Positions 1,771 through 49,828 of a stretch of 64,000 nt of DNA are shown here, piece by piece. The number at the start of each line of letters is the position of its first letter. The first letter of the stretch is position 1. This stretch comes from Phytoactinopolyspora limicola (GTDB taxonomy: Bacteria > Actinomycetota > Actinomycetes > Jiangellales > Jiangellaceae): the NCBI RefSeq assembly GCF_011320225.1, contig NZ_JAAOEN010000001.1:186001-250000 (forward strand). Direction: 5' to 3'. A program made the translations under genes and the position numbers. A model generated the notes under the pieces. It was given only the letters and a program-made list of their open reading frames with translations. It searched no databases and was not told the DNA's origin.

Positions 1771-3324
1771 ATGTGGAGATCGAACCGCCCATCGTCCGAT
1801 CCGACTGATTCCCAGCACCTACACCGCTCGCGGCGTTCACTGATCGGTGGAGCGCTGATCGGGGGTGGCGGCCTCGCCGCCGGTGCGCTGCTTTCCGCAC
1901 CACCAGCCGTGGCCGCACCACCGAGTTGGAAACGGTTCGGTGTCGAACACCCCGGCGGCGAACCAGACGAGACACAGATCCAGCGGGCGCTCGACGCCGC
2001 CCGCGACGCCGATGGCGGGCACGTCAACGTCGGCCCCGGCGTCTGGCGGATTCACAACCAGCACCTGCGCATCTATGCCAACACTCGACTCACCCTCGCG
2101 CCGGGAACGGTCTTGCTGCGCACCGGGGCGTTGACCGCCATGCTGAGCAACGGGCCTCGCGATGGTTCCGACACCACCACCGAGGGCTACGACGGCCCTG
2201 GCAACATCATCGTCGAAGGTGGCGTGTGGGATTTCAACGCCCGGGAGGTTCCCCGCCCCGGCTGGGGTTTGGTGTTCGGTCACGCTGCCAACATCGTCGT
2301 GCAGAACATGGAGATCCTCGACGTCTCCGAATGGCACGCCATCGAATACAACGCCATCTTCAACGGCGTCATCGACTCGTGCACCACGGTTGGTTCCATC
2401 GAACGGCCATCAGCGGCGTGGAACCAGGAGGCGGTGAGCATCGACCTCGCCTGGCCGGGACTACAACCGTTCGGCGCAGCCGACTACACCCAGAGCAAGA
2501 TGATCCGGATCACCAACAACTACTGCTCAGGTTGGCCGACGTTCGCCGGCGATCACAGCGGTTACACCGGGTCCAGCCATGAACAGTTCATCATCGCCAA
2601 CAACACGATGGAGGATCTGTCCTACTGGGGGGTCAGCATCCGCAACGTCAACGGGGCGGTGATCACCGGCAACACGATGCACAACGTCGGCGGCGGGATC
2701 TGGGTCCGGCCCCACGACGACCCGAACTACGACAACCACCGAGCCAACAACGGCATCGTCGTAGCGGACAACGTCGTCGACACCACCACCCGCGACGAAG
2801 GGATCCGAGTCCGGGGAATCGTCAGCGACGATCTCGGCGACGGGCGGATCTACGGCAGCTCCGTCACGGGCAACGTCGTGCGCAACGCCGAGCTGACCGG
2901 GATCGTCGTCCGCTGGGCGCCCGAGGCACAGGTGAGCAACAACACCGTGCTCGGCTCGAAGCGGCACGGCGTCGAGGTACTCGACTCTCCCGCGTCCGTC
3001 GTCTCCGCCAACTACGTCCGCGACCTTCACCAGCACGGCATCGCCGTCACCGGGGGCGACGGCCACCAGGTAAGCGGCAACTCCATCGCCAACGCGGGCC
3101 GGTCGGGCACCGGCGCCGGGATCCACTTCGCGCGCGCCACGACGGCCAACGTCCAAGGCAACAAAATCACCTCGGTGTCACCGAGGCCCGCCCACGCGAT
3201 CTCGTCCGACGCCGACGCCGCCGACCTCTTCTACACCAACAACGACGTCCGCGGCGGCTACGCCGACACCCCGTTCGACCTCAACGGCGACGGCCACACC
3301 GACACCCCCGGCAACCTCACCTAA
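1771..3324 (+). CDS. Tat-exported right-handed parallel beta-helix protein
   Basis: 517 residues. The N-terminus has a twin-arginine signal (SRRSLIGGALIGGG, about residues 20-33) with a likely cleavage after AVA near residue 48. The body (about 60-500) has many short N/D/G-rich rungs such as NNTMED, GNTMHNV, DNVVDT, GNVVRN and NNTVLG, which is the PbH1 pattern of pectate-lyase-like helices. Families with this fold are mostly polysaccharide lyases, epimerases or hydrolases; I see no assignable active site. The C-terminal FDLNGDGHTD resembles a calcium-binding or dockerin-like loop. The neighbouring DeoR regulator fits a carbohydrate role. The RNA leader at 1666-1770 shows no clear element. Confidence 0.8.
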   Translation: MWRSNRPSSDPTDSQHLHRSRRSLIGGALIGGGGLAAGALLSAPPAVAAPPSWKRFGVEHPGGEPDETQIQRALDAARDADGGHVNVGPGVWRIHNQHLRIYANTRLTLAPGTVLLRTGALTAMLSNGPRDGSDTTTEGYDGPGNIIVEGGVWDFNAREVPRPGWGLVFGHAANIVVQNMEILDVSEWHAIEYNAIFNGVIDSCTTVGSIERPSAAWNQEAVSIDLAWPGLQPFGAADYTQSKMIRITNNYCSGWPTFAGDHSGYTGSSHEQFIIANNTMEDLSYWGVSIRNVNGAVITGNTMHNVGGGIWVRPHDDPNYDNHRANNGIVVADNVVDTTTRDEGIRVRGIVSDDLGDGRIYGSSVTGNVVRNAELTGIVVRWAPEAQVSNNTVLGSKRHGVEVLDSPASVVSANYVRDLHQHGIAVTGGDGHQVSGNSIANAGRSGTGAGIHFARATTANVQGNKITSVSPRPAHAISSDADAADLFYTNNDVRGGYADTPFDLNGDGHTDTPGNLT

Positions 3325-3331
3325 CCCCGTT

Positions 3332-3552
3332 GTGCACCTGATCTCCGTTTTGTCACCTGATCTTTTCCACGGCAGCGATCAGGTGTGCTGAACGCGGGCA
3401 ACGGCTCGCCGTGCTGCATCTGATCGTCTCCGCGATGTGGACACTCGATGATCAGGTGCACAAACGGGCCGATTTTGGCCTGACGTGCATCTGATCATCG
3501 GTGCGTCCACATCGCGGAGACGATCAGATGCACAAACGGAGATCAGGTGCAC
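3332..3552. repeat. Long nested inverted repeat, copy 1 (YCTGATC family)
   Basis: A 221-base intergenic element whose ends are perfect inverted repeats: GTGCACCTGATCTCCGTTT (from 3332) and its complement ending at 3552. Inside are further inverted units: CACCTGATC at 3354 with GATCAGGTG at 3377, TGCATCTGATC at 3415 with GATCAGATGCA at 3522, and GATCAGGTGCAC at 3450 with GTGCATCTGATC at 3485, so the whole can fold into one branched hairpin. A related copy is at 18582-19044. No target-site duplication is seen. The remaining bases 3553-3757 hold nothing I can assign. Confidence 0.85.
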
Positions 3553-3757
3553 ACAGATGACTGCCGTACCCACGAACCGACATTCAGAGCGTGACACGGT
3601 GAGCGCCTCCACAAAGGGCGCATAGCGGGCACGATGACCGGCGTTCAACGCACCACGGGTATGCCCCGGCAGCGGTTGATGACACCGTCGTGCGCCAACG
3701 CGGCGCCGACGGTGCAGTGGTGAGCCAAGCCCCTACGACTGTGGCGCGGCGTCCGAT

Positions 3758-4753
3758 TCACTCGTAAAGGACGTATTCGGGCAACGGATCAAGCGCGAGC
3801 ACCTGCTCCGGCGTCATCAGCGGGCCGTGCCGAGCATCTTCCTCGAAGAACAGCTTGAAACCCGCGTGGACGTGGTCCGGTGTCGACGGAACGATGCGGT
3901 CCCAGGTTGCCTCCTTGTCCGCCTGGGCCCCGATCCCGTCGACGCTTTTCACCAGCACCACACCGGGATGGTCACCGAGGTCGGCCTCGTCGCGAACAAC
4001 CGACGGGTGCACCTGGTGGAACACGATCACCTTCTCCGGTAGGTCATGTTCGGCGACCAGATCCGAGACGTACGCGGCAACGTCGTCGAGTTCCTCACCG
4101 GTAGTGCTGCCATACGTCCGGCCGGGCACCTCGCCGTCACCGACGGCCCATTCGGGGTCGAGGGCCAGGCCGACATCCGGCTCCAGCAGCCACTCCTCCA
4201 ACAGTTCGACGTCGTCAAGGAAACTCGACCGGCCCGGCTGGATGTTGAGCAACAGCAAGGCGCCGTGTTCCCGTGCGGCCCGCAAGTAGTCCTCGATCAC
4301 CTCGTCCGGCTCGATGGTTCGGTACAGCCCGCTAGATGTCGCCGAGTTGTGCGCGATGACGGCGATCAACTCGTAGACCGGCAGCGCCGTGCGGCCGTCG
4401 ACTTCGTAGTCGGCGAGCATCTCGTCCAACGCGTCGGCGGCACCGTCGAGGTCATCCGCGTCGAGCCGCCCGAACGCCGGGGACCGGCCGCCCGAGAAGC
4501 CGACCAATCGGTGCTCGGGAAAGATCGACTCGGCTCCGCCCGGCAGCGTCGACGGCTCCTCCGCCGCATCGGACTCAGCCTCGGCATCAGCACCACCATC
4601 CGGGTCCGGATTCGGTTCGCCTTCCGGGGCGGATTCGGTGGTGTTCGGCGACGGCTCATGGGGCTGATCGACGACCGGATCCGGATCGGAGCCACACGCG
4701 GCGGCGAGCACTGCACAGGTCACAACAAACGGTACGAGGTGGCGTGTATCCAT
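3758..4753 (-). CDS. Putative lipoprotein, actinobacterial TIM-barrel-like family of unknown function
   Basis: 331 residues from the ATG at 4753; an upstream in-frame start at 4876 would put 41 unlikely residues before the signal peptide. The N-terminus has a hydrophobic stretch ending VLAAACG, a slightly non-standard lipobox, followed by a long acidic Pro/Glu/Asp linker (about 25-75). The globular part carries runs such as NIQPGRSSFLDDV, GLALDPEWAVGDGEVPG and a C-terminal FKLFFEEDARHGPLMTPEQ that I recall from actinobacterial lipoproteins without known activity. Alternating hydrophobic strands with conserved D/E (LALDPEW) would fit a glycosidase-like barrel, but that is inference. It probably sits on the outer face of the membrane. 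Confidence 0.65.
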   Translation of the reverse strand: MDTRHLVPFVVTCAVLAAACGSDPDPVVDQPHEPSPNTTESAPEGEPNPDPDGGADAEAESDAAEEPSTLPGGAESIFPEHRLVGFSGGRSPAFGRLDADDLDGAADALDEMLADYEVDGRTALPVYELIAVIAHNSATSSGLYRTIEPDEVIEDYLRAAREHGALLLLNIQPGRSSFLDDVELLEEWLLEPDVGLALDPEWAVGDGEVPGRTYGSTTGEELDDVAAYVSDLVAEHDLPEKVIVFHQVHPSVVRDEADLGDHPGVVLVKSVDGIGAQADKEATWDRIVPSTPDHVHAGFKLFFEEDARHGPLMTPEQVLALDPLPEYVLYE

Positions 4754-5012
4754 CAGTAGCGAGTCTGCCTGGATCGGTGCGAACAATGCCACCTCGGCTT
4801 CAGAGCTCAGCGGGGTCGCTGGTGCGCTGAACGCTCGCTGGAAACCGCGACCCGGGCCGATCAAACGAGGATTCACCGCACTAGGCCGGTTGATCCCACC
4901 ATGACGAAGGGCTCGTCGGATTTCAGTGGGTAGACCGCCCGAAGAACTATCGGCTGCCGAGACCGTGGCGGCCGCACACGTCGGCAGCGGCCGCCACGGC
5001 CGGACACGTCCG

Positions 5013-5105
5013 CGGAGGGCATGGGATTCGAACCCATGAGGACGGAGAGGGCCCCGCCCTAGAACTTTTCAAGAGTTCCCCGTTCGGCCACTCCGGCAGC
5101 CCTCC
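5013..5105 (-). tRNA. tRNA-Ser (anticodon UGA)
   Basis: Read on the minus strand, the acceptor stem GGAGGGC/GCCCTCC closes a class II tRNA of 93 bases. The anticodon stem GAACT/AGTTC is perfect with loop CTTGAAA, giving anticodon TGA, which reads UCA/UCG codons. A long variable arm (GGGCGGGGCCCTC) and a T arm ATGGG-TTCGAAT-CCCAT follow, all diagnostic of tRNA-Ser. The 3' CCA is not encoded. The discriminator base is G, as expected for serine. Confidence 0.95.
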
Positions 5106-5259
5106 CGGCATAGGCAAGTGTGCCACGAACCTCCGGGTCGGATCGACTATGGCGGCTTGGCCGCCGTCGCTGGCGGGGACCGTCGGACATCGTCCACGGT
5201 GAGGCTGGATCCTTTACTATGTCCTCCTCCGACAACCCGTCCGACCAACGGGAGAACCG

Positions 5260-5598
5260 ATGCGCTTCGTCCTTCTGATGTGTGACGACGACGCATCCTG
5301 GCCCACACCGGAGGAGATCGCGGCCGACCCCGAACACCAGAGCTGGTCGGCGCAGATGCGCAGCCGCCGGATACTCGTCGACGGCGGACAGCTACGGCCC
5401 AGCACCGAGGCCACAACCGTGCGGGTGCGCGGCGACGAGACGCTGGTCTCCGATGGCCCGTTCATCGAAACCAAAGACTTGATCGGCGGGTTCGCCGTGA
5501 TCGAGTGTCCCGATCTCGACACCGCCATCGAGGTCGCCGCCAGCCACCCCGTCGCCCGGTCCGCCGTCGTCGAGATCCGGCCGTTCTGGGAGACGTGA
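5260..5598 (+). CDS. YciI-like DGPF domain protein
   Basis: 112 residues covering a complete YCII-related (DGPF) domain: N-terminal MRFVLLMCDDD, a central SDGPFIETKDLIGGF with the family-defining DGPF, and a C-terminal ARSAVVEIRPF strand. The fold is a small ferredoxin-like alpha/beta barrel; the biochemical role in this subgroup is unknown. Its stop codon overlaps the GTG start of the sigma factor (GTGA at 5595-5598), so the two are translationally coupled. This pairing is the standard arrangement for ECF42 sigma factors. The ribosome site GGGAG lies 7-8 bases before the ATG. Confidence 0.9.
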   Translation: MRFVLLMCDDDASWPTPEEIAADPEHQSWSAQMRSRRILVDGGQLRPSTEATTVRVRGDETLVSDGPFIETKDLIGGFAVIECPDLDTAIEVAASHPVARSAVVEIRPFWET

Positions 5599-6857
5599 CG
5601 GACGAGATACAAGCCGCGGTAGCGGCGGCGTTCCAGGACGAGTGGGGCCAGGTCGTCGCCACCTTGATCAAGCTGACCGGAGACTGGGACCTCGCCGAGG
5701 AATGTACGCAGGACGCGTTCGCCGTGGCCGTCGACCGGTGGCGGCGAGACGGCGTCCCGCGTCGGCCCGGCGCGTGGCTGACCACCACCGCCCGACGGAG
5801 GGCCACCGACCGGCTGCGCCGCGACGCGGTGGGGGCGGCGAAGCTTCGGCTGCTGGCCGCGTCGGCCCGCGGTGACCCCAGCGCCGAACTCGCGAACGAC
5901 GAGGTAGACAGCGACGAATACGGCGACCACCGCCTAGAGTTGATCTTCACCTGCTGTCACCCGACGATCCCGTTCGAGGGCCGGGTGGCGCTGACGTTAC
6001 GCACCCTCACCGGCCTGAGCACCGCTGAGATCGCGCGGGCTTTCCTTGTCTCCGAGTCCACGATGGCGCAACGGCTCGTGCGGGCCAAGCGGAGGATCCG
6101 CGAGGCCGGGCTCCCCTACGTGGTGCCGCCGGCCGCGGACCTGCCGGAACGGACCGCGGCCGTGCTCGGGGTGCTCTACCTGGTCTTCAACGAGGGCTAC
6201 GGTGCTACCAGTGGTGCCGACCTTGTCCGCCGAGAGTTGAGCGCCGAGGCGATCCGGCTCGCCCGCCTCGTGGTGCACCTGATGCCCGGTGAACCCGAGT
6301 GCCTCGGGCTGCTGGCGCTCATGCTCCTGCACGACGCCCGTCGGACGACGAGGGTGGATCGCACCGGCATGCTGGTGCCGCTCGACGAACAGCGCCGCGC
6401 GGACTGGGACGCAGCGAAGATCGACGAGGGGGTGCATCTACTCGACACCGCGCTCAAGCTCGGCCGACCCGGTCCTTACCAGGTACAAGCGGCCATCTCG
6501 GCGTGCCATGCCACGGCCGCGGACGTGACGGACACCGACTGGTCGCAGATCGCCGTGCTCTACGAACGGCTGGCCACGCTGGCCCCCTCCCCGGTAGTGG
6601 AGCTCAACCGTGCTGTCGCCGTGGCCATGGCCGACGGCATCCCGGCCGGCCTGGAGCTGGTCGAGGCGCTGGAGCGCGACGGTGCGCTCGCCGGCTACCA
6701 CCTGCTGCCGGCCACCCACGCCGACCTACTCCGGCGGGCGAACCGCCCTGCGGAGGCGGCCACGTATTACCGGCGGGCGCTCGACCTCGTGGGTACTGAG
6801 GCCGAACGCCGCTACTTGCAGCGGCGCCTGGCCGAGGTGACCGCCCCCTCCCCATGA
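5595..6857 (+). CDS. ECF42-type RNA polymerase sigma factor
   Basis: 420 residues from a GTG that overlaps the stop of the DGPF gene by 4 bases; frames further upstream are read-through of the DGPF gene. Sigma region 2 (about 10-75) includes LIKLTGDWDLAEECTQDAF; region 4 (about 115-165) has LTGLSTAEIARAFLVSEST. A C-terminal extension of about 220 residues rich in TPR-like helices (YLVFNEGY, LLHDARR, LNRAVAVAM, YYRRALDLV) is characteristic of ECF42, where it is needed for activity and replaces a classic anti-sigma factor. The target genes usually include its own DGPF operon. The TGA stop lies inside a palindromic repeat (6849-6910), giving the terminus PSP. Confidence 0.92.
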   Translation: MTDEIQAAVAAAFQDEWGQVVATLIKLTGDWDLAEECTQDAFAVAVDRWRRDGVPRRPGAWLTTTARRRATDRLRRDAVGAAKLRLLAASARGDPSAELANDEVDSDEYGDHRLELIFTCCHPTIPFEGRVALTLRTLTGLSTAEIARAFLVSESTMAQRLVRAKRRIREAGLPYVVPPAADLPERTAAVLGVLYLVFNEGYGATSGADLVRRELSAEAIRLARLVVHLMPGEPECLGLLALMLLHDARRTTRVDRTGMLVPLDEQRRADWDAAKIDEGVHLLDTALKLGRPGPYQVQAAISACHATAADVTDTDWSQIAVLYERLATLAPSPVVELNRAVAVAMADGIPAGLELVEALERDGALAGYHLLPATHADLLRRANRPAEAATYYRRALDLVGTEAERRYLQRRLAEVTAPSP

Positions 6858-46937: not shown

Positions 46938-48326
46938 TCAGCTCAATGCCAGCTCACGGTCGTCAGCCGGCGCGTCGAGCACTACACCGGCACCAACCGA
47001 GTGCATGATCCGCATGGACTGCAACGCTCGGTCGAATGCCTCGAGTGCCTCGTCGGTACGCCCCAGATCGCGATAGAGGTCACCTAGCTCACGCCACGCG
47101 GCCGCGGCGCGACGCGACGCACCCATCGCCTCGAGCATGGACGCGGCCAACGAACCCTCACGAGCACTCTGGTCTACGTCGCCCTCGGCACGGAGGACTC
47201 GAGCCAGCACAAGCCGTGCTCGTGCAGCCTCCATGCGTGGCTGGTCGTCCATGTCACGCAAGGCCGCTTGGGCAGCCTCGTGAGCCTCGTTCAACCGTCC
47301 GAGCGTGAGCAGAGCGTCGGCCCGGGTGCTGTCGAAGTGGCGAACGTCGTCCGTCCCACCGTGGGCGGAGATTTCACCTCGCACGCTCTCCAGCAGATCC
47401 AACGCTTCCGTGGCGCGCGGCTCGTCGCCCTGGAGCAACAACCACGCGTACGCCATGCGCAACCGCGCCAGGTTACGACGATCATCGCCCTCGCCGAACA
47501 GCGCCAGGGCGCGATCTACGAGACTCAGCGCCTGAGCGAGGTCGCCGCGGGCCTCGGCGATCACCGATGCGTTCCAGTACGCCGCCCCGCGGGTGTGCGG
47601 AGCGCCCATCTCGTCGGCGGCCCGGACGAGTTCCGCGGCCAACGTCCGCGAACGGACGATGTCGCCCCGGCCGTGATACGCGCTGAGCACCGTGCAACCC
47701 AGCCGCACGTACTCGTCGGTGTGTTCCAGGCCCATCTCGCCGGCCGAGCGCATGGCCTCTTCGCCGATCTGGATGGCCATGTCGAGGTCACCGGCGCTCT
47801 GGTAGCAACGGGACATCACGAGAGCGACATCCAGCCACGGCTGAACTTCTGGTGTCTGCCGGGCTTCGTCGGCCAGCTGGCCCAAGAGGTCGATGGCGCC
47901 CTCGATGTCTCCCTTGCGCTCCAGCGCCTGCGCTTGGCCGAGCCGAGCCCGGCGGCTCTGCTCGTCATTCAGACCGGGATCGCCGATCAACGTGGTGAAC
48001 TCGTCGTAAGCGCCGTCGGCCTGACCGTCGTACAGCGCTTTCTCCGCACGCCCCAGCGCCAGCCGGGCCCGTGTGCGCACCGAGGCGTCGACACCGTCAC
48101 GCAGATACTCCACGTCTATCCGCAACCGCTCAGCGATATGCGCCAAAGCCGCGGCAGCCGGTTGACGGCGACCACTCTCCACCAGCGAGACATAACTGGG
48201 CGACAACATCCCCTCAGCGATGTCCGCCTGCGAAAGACCAAGCTCAATCCGTCGCGATCGGATTCGCTGCCCGACGGGCGTCGGGGTTGGCGCCTCGTCA
48301 ACTGTTGCTTGTGGCTGCTCTGTCAT
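46938..48326 (-). CDS. XRE-family regulator with a TPR array (possible peptide receptor)
   Basis: 462 residues. An N-terminal Cro/C1-type helix-turn-helix (about 18-75: VGQRIRSRRIELGLSQADIAE, then SPSYVSLVESGRRQPAAAALA) is followed by about nine TPR-like helical hairpins to the end (AEKALYDGQADGAYDEF, RCYQSAGDLDMAIQIGEEAMR, LGDLYRDLGRTDEALEAFDRALQS). HTH-plus-TPR is the layout of RRNPP peptide receptors (Rgg, PlcR, NprR) and of other actinobacterial TPR regulators. It is divergent from a 42-residue secreted-peptide gene at 48402, with an inverted repeat between the two starts. Whether it binds that peptide is inference. Confidence 0.85.
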   Translation of the reverse strand: MTEQPQATVDEAPTPTPVGQRIRSRRIELGLSQADIAEGMLSPSYVSLVESGRRQPAAAALAHIAERLRIDVEYLRDGVDASVRTRARLALGRAEKALYDGQADGAYDEFTTLIGDPGLNDEQSRRARLGQAQALERKGDIEGAIDLLGQLADEARQTPEVQPWLDVALVMSRCYQSAGDLDMAIQIGEEAMRSAGEMGLEHTDEYVRLGCTVLSAYHGRGDIVRSRTLAAELVRAADEMGAPHTRGAAYWNASVIAEARGDLAQALSLVDRALALFGEGDDRRNLARLRMAYAWLLLQGDEPRATEALDLLESVRGEISAHGGTDDVRHFDSTRADALLTLGRLNEAHEAAQAALRDMDDQPRMEAARARLVLARVLRAEGDVDQSAREGSLAASMLEAMGASRRAAAAWRELGDLYRDLGRTDEALEAFDRALQSMRIMHSVGAGVVLDAPADDRELALS

Positions 48327-48337
48327 GACACTATTGC

Positions 48338-48349
48338 ACTACAGGTAGT
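48338..48349. promoter_or_regulatory. Inverted repeat between the XRE and peptide genes
   Basis: ACTACAGGTAGT is a perfect 5-base inverted repeat with a 2-base spacer, 11 bases from the regulator start, and CTAGTCCTAG follows at 48359-48368. The region is AT-rich for this genome. Both are plausible sites for the XRE protein to control itself and the peptide gene. Confidence 0.5.
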
Positions 48350-48401
48350 CATTTTTTGCTAGTCCTAGTGACCAGCCCAGTGATCCAGGAGGTAGATCGC
48401 G

Positions 48402-48530
48402 GTGGCCCGTATCAAGCGCGTACTCGCCGTCACTCTTGCTGCATTGACCCTGACGGCAACTGCCGCCATCGTTGCTGCCCCAGCTTCCGCAGGCACCATC
48501 GCGCCCGACTGGCCTGTGATGTGCTGCTAG
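48402..48530 (+). CDS. Short secreted peptide precursor, candidate signalling peptide
   Basis: 42 residues from a GTG 8 bases after a perfect AGGAGGT (48387-48393). Residues 1-30 are a textbook Sec signal peptide: basic start ARIKR, hydrophobic core LAVTLAALTLTATAAIVAA and cleavage motif PASA. Cleavage leaves a 12-residue product, GTIAPDWPVMCC, ending in two adjacent cysteines. It has its own terminator (48547-48606) and starts 75 bases from the divergent XRE-TPR regulator. The arrangement matches propeptide/receptor pairs of the RRNPP type; an alternative is a small secreted bacteriocin-like or structural peptide. I do not recognise the family, and cognate import (Opp) genes are not in the window. 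Confidence 0.65.
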   Translation: MARIKRVLAVTLAALTLTATAAIVAAPASAGTIAPDWPVMCC

Positions 48531-48546
48531 GAGTAACATTGAACGC

Positions 48547-48606
48547 GCACGGACGACTAGCTGCGTCTCGCCCCCCGAACGCAGGTATGTCGTCCGTGCT
48601 TTAATT
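48547..48606 (+). terminator. Terminator of the peptide gene
   Basis: GCACGGACGAC (48547-48557) pairs exactly with GTCGTCCGTGC (48589-48599) and is followed by TTTAATT. The loop contains a second hairpin CTGCGT/ACGCAG. The T-rich end makes this one of the few classical intrinsic terminators in the window. Confidence 0.8.
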
Positions 48607-48703
48607 GTGCGCCCATGCACCTGTCGAGCATCACCCGACGAGTTCCGTCAGTGTCCGTTTTATAACTGACAGTTACCTGGTGCTCACTCCGAGTTATTGA
48701 CCT

Positions 48704-49828
48704 TCACGCGCCGCGAGTTAACCACTCGGCACACACCCGGATGACAACATCGTTGGCTTCCGGCTCGCCGACAGTCACGCGGCATCCTTCATCACCGAAT
48801 GGGCGGACAATTATCCCCGCTTCGGCACATTTCTGGGCAAATCTGTCTGTTTCCTCACCCAGTTCTAGCCATACGAAGTTCGCCTCGGTGCGCGGCACCG
48901 GCCAGCCCTGCTCTCGTAGGGCCGCGGCCACTCGGTCACGTTCACCAACCAGGTCATGCACCCGCTCCAGCAGGTCGGCCTCACGTTGGAGCGACGCCAC
49001 CGCCGCCGCCTGCGCAAGGCTCGACACCCCGAAGGGCACCGCCGTCTTCCGAAGCGCGTCAGCCACCTCGTCATGCGCGACCGAGAAGCCCACCCGCATA
49101 CCCGCCAGGCCGTAGGCCTTCGAGAAGGTACGCAACACGCAGAGGTTGTGGTGTCCGCGGTAGGCGTCGATACCGTCGGCTGCCTCGGGATCACGCACGA
49201 ACTCGCGATATGCCTCGTCCAGCACCACCAGCACGTTCTTGGGTACCTGTCCCATGAGCCACTCCAACTCGTCCCGAGTGACCACGGGACCGGTCGGGTT
49301 GTTGGGACTACAGACCAACACCAGCTTCGTCCGGTCGGTCACTGCGGCAGCCATAGCCCGCACGTCATGCCGGGCATCGGCGTCCAGCGGGACGCGCACC
49401 GACGTCGCCCCCGAAACTCCCACCACGATCGGATAAGCCTCGAACGATCGCCACGCGTACAACACCTCGTCGCCCTCCGCGGCACAGGCCTGCACGATCT
49501 GCTGGAGAACTCCGACGCTGCCGGTGCCCGTGGCGATGTGTTCGGCCGGTACGTCAAACCGGCGTGCCAGCGCCTCCACGAGGGTCGTGGCGAACATGTC
49601 GGGGTAACGGTTGACCGATCGGGCCGCCTCGACGATGGCTTCCTCAACCCCGGGTAGAGGCGGGAACGGGTTCTCATTGGACGACAACTTGACCGGTACG
49701 GGTCCCCCGGCGCCCCCAGCGGCTCGGCCGGGGCGATACGACGGCAAGCCGTCCAGCGCCGCCCGCAGCCGCACTCGTGGGTGCATCACCTCGTCGACGC
49801 GGTTCTGCGTGTCATTCGATGGCGTCAT
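48704..49828 (-). CDS. Histidinol-phosphate / aromatic aminotransferase family
   Basis: 374 residues from the ATG at 49828 (49786 is an alternative); the open frame further upstream is antisense to the holin-like gene. Fold-type I PLP enzyme: the substrate motif [27 protein letters not shown] and the PLP lysine in [16 protein letters not shown]. It is either HisC or the aromatic aminotransferase Pat that makes phenylalanine; sequence alone does not separate them. It is not next to other his or aro genes. Divergent from the holin-like gene, sharing a short promoter region with TATA-like sequences near 49840. Confidence 0.88.

Follow-up and report, generated by a model that had tools for sequence, protein, structure and literature searches.

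The 64,000-nt stretch of DNA analysed here (the window) carries a 42-residue pre-peptide gene divergent from an XRE-TPR regulator, and this peptide-regulator pair is real and widely conserved. No description of it was found in the library searched, which has few subscription papers and no bioRxiv preprints, and as far as that search goes the pair is undescribed. The pair probably represents an RRNPP-like quorum-sensing system in Actinomycetota, with putative export, import and binding of the peptide. The evidence comprises the ORF, its conservation and amino-acid constraint, its class-wide tie to the regulator, the fixed Cys-Cys end and the predicted fold of the receptor. The features of the locus are listed below, with the evidence for each in brackets.

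46938-48326, minus strand: XRE (HTH_3) + TPR regulator, 462 aa, ATG start, presumed peptide receptor (ORF, Pfam, model, orthologues)
48327-48401, no strand: divergent intergenic region, 75 nt between both start codons (conserved in Jiangellaceae)
48387-48393, plus strand: Shine-Dalgarno sequence AGGAGGT of the peptide gene, 8 nt to the start codon (sequence)
48402-48530, plus strand: pre-peptide gene, 42 aa, GTG start (orthologues and selection analysis)
48402-48491, plus strand: Sec-type leader, codons 1-30, predicted cut after A28-S29-A30 (sequence, conservation)
48492-48527, plus strand: presumed secreted part GTIAPDWPVMCC, codons 31-42, with the CC codons at 48522-48527 (conservation)
48546-48601, plus strand: conserved hairpin in the 3' UTR of the peptide gene, outer arms 48547-48557 and 48589-48599 (fold, covariation)
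48564-48581, plus strand: invariant 18-nt core of the hairpin, CGTCTCGCCCCCCGAACG (identical in 20/20 Jiangellaceae)
48704-49828, minus strand: HisC-like aminotransferase, convergent flank outside the pair, putative start (Pfam Aminotran_1_2)

The full product of the ORF at 48402-48530 (+) is MARIKRVLAVTLAALTLTATAAIVAAPASAGTIAPDWPVMCC, laid out as MARIKRVLAVTLAALTLTATAAIVAAPASA followed by GTIAPDWPVMCC with the predicted cut between them; it ends in ..DWPVMCC, W-P included. The n-region, h-region and AxA site were recognised by simple home-made rules together with conservation, pointing to putative Sec export. Residues P35, P38, M40, C41 and C42 were invariant in seven aligned sequences, and the peptide had no match in Pfam. 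Five leader-type ORFs with a Shine-Dalgarno sequence passed our home-made filter in the 64-kb window, and one of the five, 48402-48530, was CC-ended. The sequence-only reading had claimed a GTG-started ORF behind AGGAGGT, a Sec-type leader and an HTH-TPR regulator diverging at 75 nt, in the receptor/propeptide layout of RRNPP systems. The start and the Shine-Dalgarno sequence were borne out at 48402 and 48387-48393, the leader was retained in 20 of 20 near-complete family genomes with its cut predicted after ASA, and the regulator (46938-48326, minus strand) does begin 75 nt from the peptide start codon. The genomic signature of the layout was also found (462-aa TPR receptor, HTH, adjoining 42-aa pro-peptide), with the peptide conserved next to orthologous and distant regulators.

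Two symmetric elements at the divergent region are candidate operator sites. The palindrome TGTCATGACA at 48321-48330 overlaps the regulator start and was present in 18 of the 20 loci of a 20-locus alignment. In the same alignment, the inverted repeat ACTAC-AG-GTAGT at 48338-48349 was exact only in the five loci of the genus Phytoactinopolyspora and was ACTACAGTCAGT-like elsewhere. On the far side of the peptide gene, an aminotransferase-like ORF occupied the equivalent place in two further loci (L016, L018). We do not favour reading the ORF as a cysteine-attenuator leader peptide, since the gene that follows is convergent and a cut site is conserved in the leader.

Conservation was examined in 22 Jiangellaceae genomes, of which the 20 near-complete ones carry the exact hairpin core. 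The nearest named relatives of the regulator were those of Phytoactinopolyspora (89-90% identity), then those of Haloactinopolyspora and Jiangella (68-73%), and the window was accordingly assigned to Jiangellaceae. A profile search found the regulator in 21 of the 22 genomes. A tblastn search with the peptide alone gave matches in 7/22 genomes at E <= 0.01, whereas the hairpin core recovered an exact copy in 20/22, the remaining two being 75% and 81% complete. The tblastn result therefore underestimates the spread of the peptide, because the hairpin-anchored search recovered all 20 near-complete genomes. Each of these 20 contained a leader ORF of 40-43 aa ending in Cys-Cys and divergent from an XRE-TPR regulator, with a Shine-Dalgarno-like stretch before its start and a stop codon 35-68 nt 5' of the hairpin core; in L028 and L030 an alternative ORF reading was also present and was disregarded in this count. 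In two Jiangella species (L110, L111), a second, different leader peptide ending in DYCC or DFCC was observed on the regulator's other side, its ORF convergent and approximately 137 nt beyond the end of the regulator match.

The peptide ORF is under amino-acid constraint. By the Nei-Gojobori method, dN/dS was approximately 0.17 in six Phytoactinopolyspora-group sequences and 0.36 in ten Jiangella sequences, four of the 20 sequences (L020, L021, L029, L033) having been placed in neither group. The sequence-only reading had staked its claim on a conserved peptide beside orthologous regulators and on constrained substitutions, and both were observed: the peptide stood beside the regulator in 20/20 family genomes, and beside distant regulators as well, and both dN/dS values were low. 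It had also proposed comparing the leader with the last codons. The leader was the tighter part (0.14 in the Phytoactinopolyspora group and 0.29 in Jiangella, versus 0.19 and 0.48 for the mature part minus CC), and pN was below pS in the mature part of both groups. Retention of the leader and the CC end in all 20 near-complete family genomes, together with the low dN/dS, shows the ORF to be more than a chance frame.

These data also bear on the idea that the short ORF encodes a small membrane toxin or single-helix protein held by the XRE regulator in a toxin-antitoxin-like manner. Such a gene would likewise be small, with one hydrophobic helix, an XRE neighbour and structured RNA at its 3' end. 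However, the ORF is not patchy in the family but present in all near-complete genomes, its AxA-type cut site is conserved, its tail is hypervariable apart from a fixed CC, and its regulator is a 462-aa TPR protein, so that we regard a toxin as very improbable.

The pairing extends across the class Actinomycetes. When 296 class genomes were searched with a profile, 48 of them had regulators at E <= 1e-40. Of the 38 sites that do not belong to the 20 near-complete family genomes, 30 (L070-L099) were read, all but the eight weakest. A leader-type ORF ending exactly in CC adjoined the regulator at 21 of these 30 loci, 15 times upstream (co-directional in L076) and six times downstream and convergent. 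Four loci had a leader-type ORF without CC, and no leader-type ORF was found at five, two of which lie at contig ends. A second set comprised the best 80 of 315 regulator relatives in named genomes; it partly overlaps L070-L099, and the counts were not summed. CC-ended ORFs were present near the regulator at 51 of the 80 loci (48 with a Shine-Dalgarno sequence by the filter; in L114, L149 and L172 it was weak or absent), and CC followed by a tail at 14, with 1-6 extra residues in 12 and a longer tail in two (L123, L128). Three loci, all from Streptosporangium, had a leader peptide without CC, five had a CC-ended or tailed peptide 1-2.4 kb from the regulator, and no candidate peptide was found at seven, two of them at contig ends. 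Even class regulator homologues as distant as approximately 31-41% identity had a small leader peptide nearby, mostly ending exactly in Cys-Cys. The terminal Cys-Cys had been called unusual in the sequence-only reading; it is instead common to most class peptides examined, and the pairing is broader than first claimed.

The association was compared with more distant DNA of the same 80 loci (95 kb near the regulators versus 517 kb distant). Among leader ORFs with a Shine-Dalgarno sequence, as defined by a home-made filter composed after the first examples had been seen, 51 of 83 within 600 nt of the regulator were CC-ended, versus 2 of 38 beyond 1.5 kb. Both distant CC-ended ORFs sit in loci without a near peptide. 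The orientation of the pair varies by clade and may be divergent, convergent or co-directional, indicating that the pairing is not one inherited stretch of DNA.

Some loci departed from the simple arrangement. Actinomadura sp. DC4 has two pairs with different peptides in one genome (L132, L138), and a Spongiactinospora locus (L175) has two peptides. In three Streptosporangiaceae MAGs, a prolyl-oligopeptidase-family (S9) gene separates the regulator from a CC-bearing leader peptide (L134:4835-6643, L137:2899-4698, L146:6362-8173); its product is possibly a processing, maturation or turnover enzyme. Cellulomonas sp. L122 contains two tandem XRE-type ORFs (3088-4524 and 4914-6317), the first judged by eye, with the gene of a CCRPAL peptide between them. 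The regulator of a Spirochaetaceae MAG (L118) was identical to that of the actinomycete locus L073, and the contig is probably mis-binned.

Across the class loci, the sequence between the leader and CC is hypervariable. In five of the eight Nonomuraea loci from named genomes (L156, L167, L169, L173, L178), the last 16 codons minus CC gave pN 0.507 versus pS 0.47, compared with 0.152 versus 0.267 in the leader; pN was below pS in the mature part of the three other small groups tested. The cysteines stayed fixed while their codons varied, TGT being used once in 7 of 51 loci. A fixed anchor with diversifying residues is the pattern that would be expected of signal specificity.

Outside the class, a wide profile was applied to 346 phylum genomes, of which 20 matched at E <= 1e-50; 19 of these are from other classes, and the remaining one is the genome of the window itself. 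A divergent leader-type ORF of 28-35 aa with a Shine-Dalgarno sequence was present at 13 of the 20 regulator loci in those 19 genomes; the distant-DNA control described above applies to the 80 class loci only. Eleven of these 13 ORFs had W-P near the end (..GYPWPK, ..NWPHVP, ..NWPKH, ..PTWPHC and once ..APWPHCC). At three loci the leader ORF lay on the opposite side of the regulator, and at four nothing passed the filter or a relaxed rescan.

Regulator homologues were also found in 16 plasmid records. Six were inspected, and a CC peptide was present in three (L181, L184, L185) and not found in the other three. Two of these peptides are annotated as hypothetical proteins, namely L181:4518-4733 (..DIPLCC, WP_123083198.1) and L185:5702-5866 (..DLPLCC, WP_331750220.1), the latter approximately 1.9 kb from the regulator. 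As for phage or viral carriage, a partial match came from one short unverified contig, and in two viral contigs the similarity was confined to the HTH part. Neighbouring genes included PucR and xanthine-dehydrogenase-type genes in Streptosporangiales, glycosyltransferase/glycogen-synthase genes in Streptomycetaceae and NRPS parts in Kutzneria, where the pair of L159, with an adjacent CC peptide, lies among NRPS-type genes (Condensation, AMP-binding). On the Streptomyces plasmid L182, a regulator homologue stands beside an adenylation-domain gene, and the peptide was not found there. No common target emerged among the neighbour genes of the few loci examined.

In Jiangellaceae, the peptide ORF is followed by a strongly conserved hairpin. 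The fold of 48520-48620 had a z-score of -4.6, and none of 200 shuffles was as good. Over the 20 Jiangellaceae sequences, 97.6% of the stem cells were paired and 8 of 19 pairs had changed on both sides; four of five hairpin measures exceeded all 500 shuffles, and the fifth (further pair types) was reached by 66 of them. The core is single-copy in its own genome. An exact core was absent from 371 class genomes outside Jiangellaceae, 25 of which contained one-mismatch matches, a level to be read beside a reversed control pattern that also matched occasionally. When a model of the hairpin was run on 55 sources (511,925 bases), it matched only the window site, there on both strands, and none of the 54 other loci. 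Rfam searches were negative for 48300-48800, even with E values as high as 10 allowed, and for six loci at gathering level, and a known RNA family was rejected on this basis.

From sequence alone, this element had been taken for a T-rich terminator. That reading holds only in part: the hairpin (48547-48599) is strong, but its tail, CTTTAATTG, is not clearly T-rich, the terminator scan raised no flag and the T run is missing in several relatives. A terminator alone was rejected, since invariance extends to the loop and several species have no T run; the core being invariant over 20 species, the hairpin goes beyond a plain terminator. It could act as a regulatory element of the 3' UTR or belong to a dual-function RNA. 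The 6C RNAs of actinobacteria, among the C-rich-loop RNAs, have a hairpin loop with six cytosines, and this loop is the likeness to the element described here; in contrast to 6C RNA, the latter is one hairpin behind a coding ORF and had no Rfam 6C match.

The RNA could even be the main product, with the ORF and the C-rich hairpin making up a regulatory or dual-function RNA whose peptide is secondary. An 18-nt core that is single-copy and invariant in 20/20 loci, within a covarying stem, is consistent with this; however, in the genomes and loci searched the hairpin was seen in Jiangellaceae only, whereas the peptide-regulator pairing is class-wide, and the ORF itself is under amino-acid constraint. 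We consider it highly unlikely that the RNA is the main product, and the peptide signal remains the preferred reading.

The regulator matched HTH_3 (36.4 bits, cut-off 23), TPR_12 and TPR_MalT over the Pfam cut-offs. Its AlphaFold2 model (pLDDT 86.7) shows an HTH followed by approximately nine TPR-type helix pairs. Foldseek with this model placed PlcR-PapR7-DNA at rank 4, and the VIA-align Z was 25.0 over 343 residues for Rap with peptide (4gyo), 24.9 for a phage Rap with peptide and 23.1 for NprR (5dbk). The eukaryotic LGN scored as high as Rap (Z 26.1), and MalT was also among the fold matches. A profile match to PlcR was obtained at E 6.7e-10 over the HTH and first TPRs, and designed and eukaryotic TPR proteins matched as well. 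Because LGN scores as high as Rap, the modelled fold says no more than that the regulator has a TPR superhelix of the peptide-binding sort; peptide sensing does not follow from the fold alone.

Four regulator residues, E136, R173, T212 and N252, were 91-100% conserved among the receptors of CC peptides. They are located in helices 121-138, 162-178, 204-220 and 243-259, which were taken as the opening helix of each of four consecutive TPRs in the model, and they presumably face the groove, a prediction from the general TPR pattern rather than from coordinates. R173 was Arg in 73/73 receptors of CC-ended peptides and in 18/18 receptors whose peptide was not found or set aside. It was lost in all seven receptors of peptides in which K or R immediately follows CC (Cellulomonas, Actinotalea, Micrococcales MAGs), retained in all five with S/A/T in that place and lost in two of the seven whose peptide lacks CC. 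In the receptors of these seven non-CC peptides, T212 was replaced by Gln and N252 by Gly or Gln without exception; among the 73 CC receptors, N252 was not Asn in seven and T212 was not Thr in four. The columns were chosen post hoc among approximately 60 conserved columns, and the tree, a quick one with long branches meeting and deep nodes unsure, placed two events for R173 loss and one each for K/R after CC, non-CC and Q212. With one or two events each and columns picked afterwards, the co-change carries no statistical weight; confined as it is to single clades, it is suggestive only.

Alternatively, the peptide might be secreted without being the regulator's ligand, acting as an extracellular or envelope peptide (for example, with metal- or redox-active vicinal cysteines) whose gene is controlled by a regulator sensing something else. 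Simple regulation would account for the adjacency and the shared intergenic region, the most fixed element in the class is CC, which would suit a metal or redox site, and TPR regulators can sense other things, MalT being among the fold matches. In some clades, however, the peptide gene lies at the regulator's other end or is separated from it by a peptidase-family gene, and no promoter region is shared; in other classes most peptides lack CC while the pairing is still present. The stretch between leader and CC diversifies, and candidate groove positions change along with the peptide end, albeit in single events. On balance, this explanation appears unlikely, although clearly less remote than a toxin or an RNA product, and we retain the RRNPP-like pair.

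For export, processing, import, binding, DNA target and outcome, we infer the following course. The divergent gene would give a 42-aa pre-peptide, whose Sec leader would be cut after ASA to release GTIAPDWPVMCC, possibly trimmed further. The peptide would accumulate outside and return through an oligopeptide permease; SBP_bac_5 (oligopeptide-binding protein) had 40 matches in the own genome, so the capacity for import is present, but these matches are numerous and unspecific, and neither an importer nor a peptidase gene lies beside the window pair. Inside the cell, the fixed Cys-Cys C-terminal end may dock in the TPR groove of the XRE-TPR regulator encoded next to it, with the variable residues before CC setting specificity. 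Binding would alter the action of the HTH at the 75-nt divergent region and thereby the expression of the pair and probably of other genes.

The closest known parallel is PlcR-PapR of the Bacillus cereus group, an RRNPP system in which an XRE-type HTH + TPR receptor is likewise found beside a short pro-peptide; the PapR pro-peptide is exported, as the present one putatively is, and its C-terminal residues are the signal. Unlike PlcR-PapR, the pair described here has a 462-aa receptor with approximately nine TPRs, a divergent peptide gene and a Cys-Cys end, and belongs to Actinomycetota. NprR-NprX and Rap-Phr, also RRNPP systems, share a TPR superhelix of similar length (Z 23.1 and 25.0) and differ in ligand end and phylum. 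In PMC10075063, the RRNPP signature is a TPR receptor of about 250-500 aa beside a small exported pro-peptide of 10-100 aa; the present locus combines 462 aa with TPRs, an N-terminal HTH_3 and a 42-aa neighbour at 75 nt. The RRNPPA survey in PMC9765709 covered Firmicutes and so does not bear on other phyla. The pair would work like an RRNPP system, while membership is left aside, the link to PlcR being a profile match over the HTH and first TPRs. The NsdA family (NF053720) showed weak similarity to the TPR part, at 33.8 bits far below the curated cut-off of 75, and the regulator was not assigned to it. We know of no adjacent peptide in that family.

More tentatively, and with somewhat less than even confidence, the pairs may form an old phylum-wide Actinomycetota peptide-signalling family separate from Firmicutes RRNPP, with mostly W-P ends in other classes and Cys-Cys in Actinomycetes, each with its own neighbouring XRE-TPR receptor. 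The vicinal cysteines would then be a fixed and possibly redox-switched anchor, and the Jiangellaceae transcript would double as a regulatory RNA by way of its invariant C-rich hairpin. In PMC10075063 and PMC13220807, actinomycete cell-to-cell signalling is presented chiefly as a matter of small diffusible molecules, gamma-butyrolactones among them, and PMC10075063 gives small molecules as the typical signals of Actinomycetota. The peptides are small enough for custom synthesis, which makes the idea testable at once. If it is true, they would offer an inexpensive synthetic means of influencing regulation in antibiotic producers, and this antibiotic-producing group would possess a widespread, gene-encoded and species-specific peptide code with the receptor next door.
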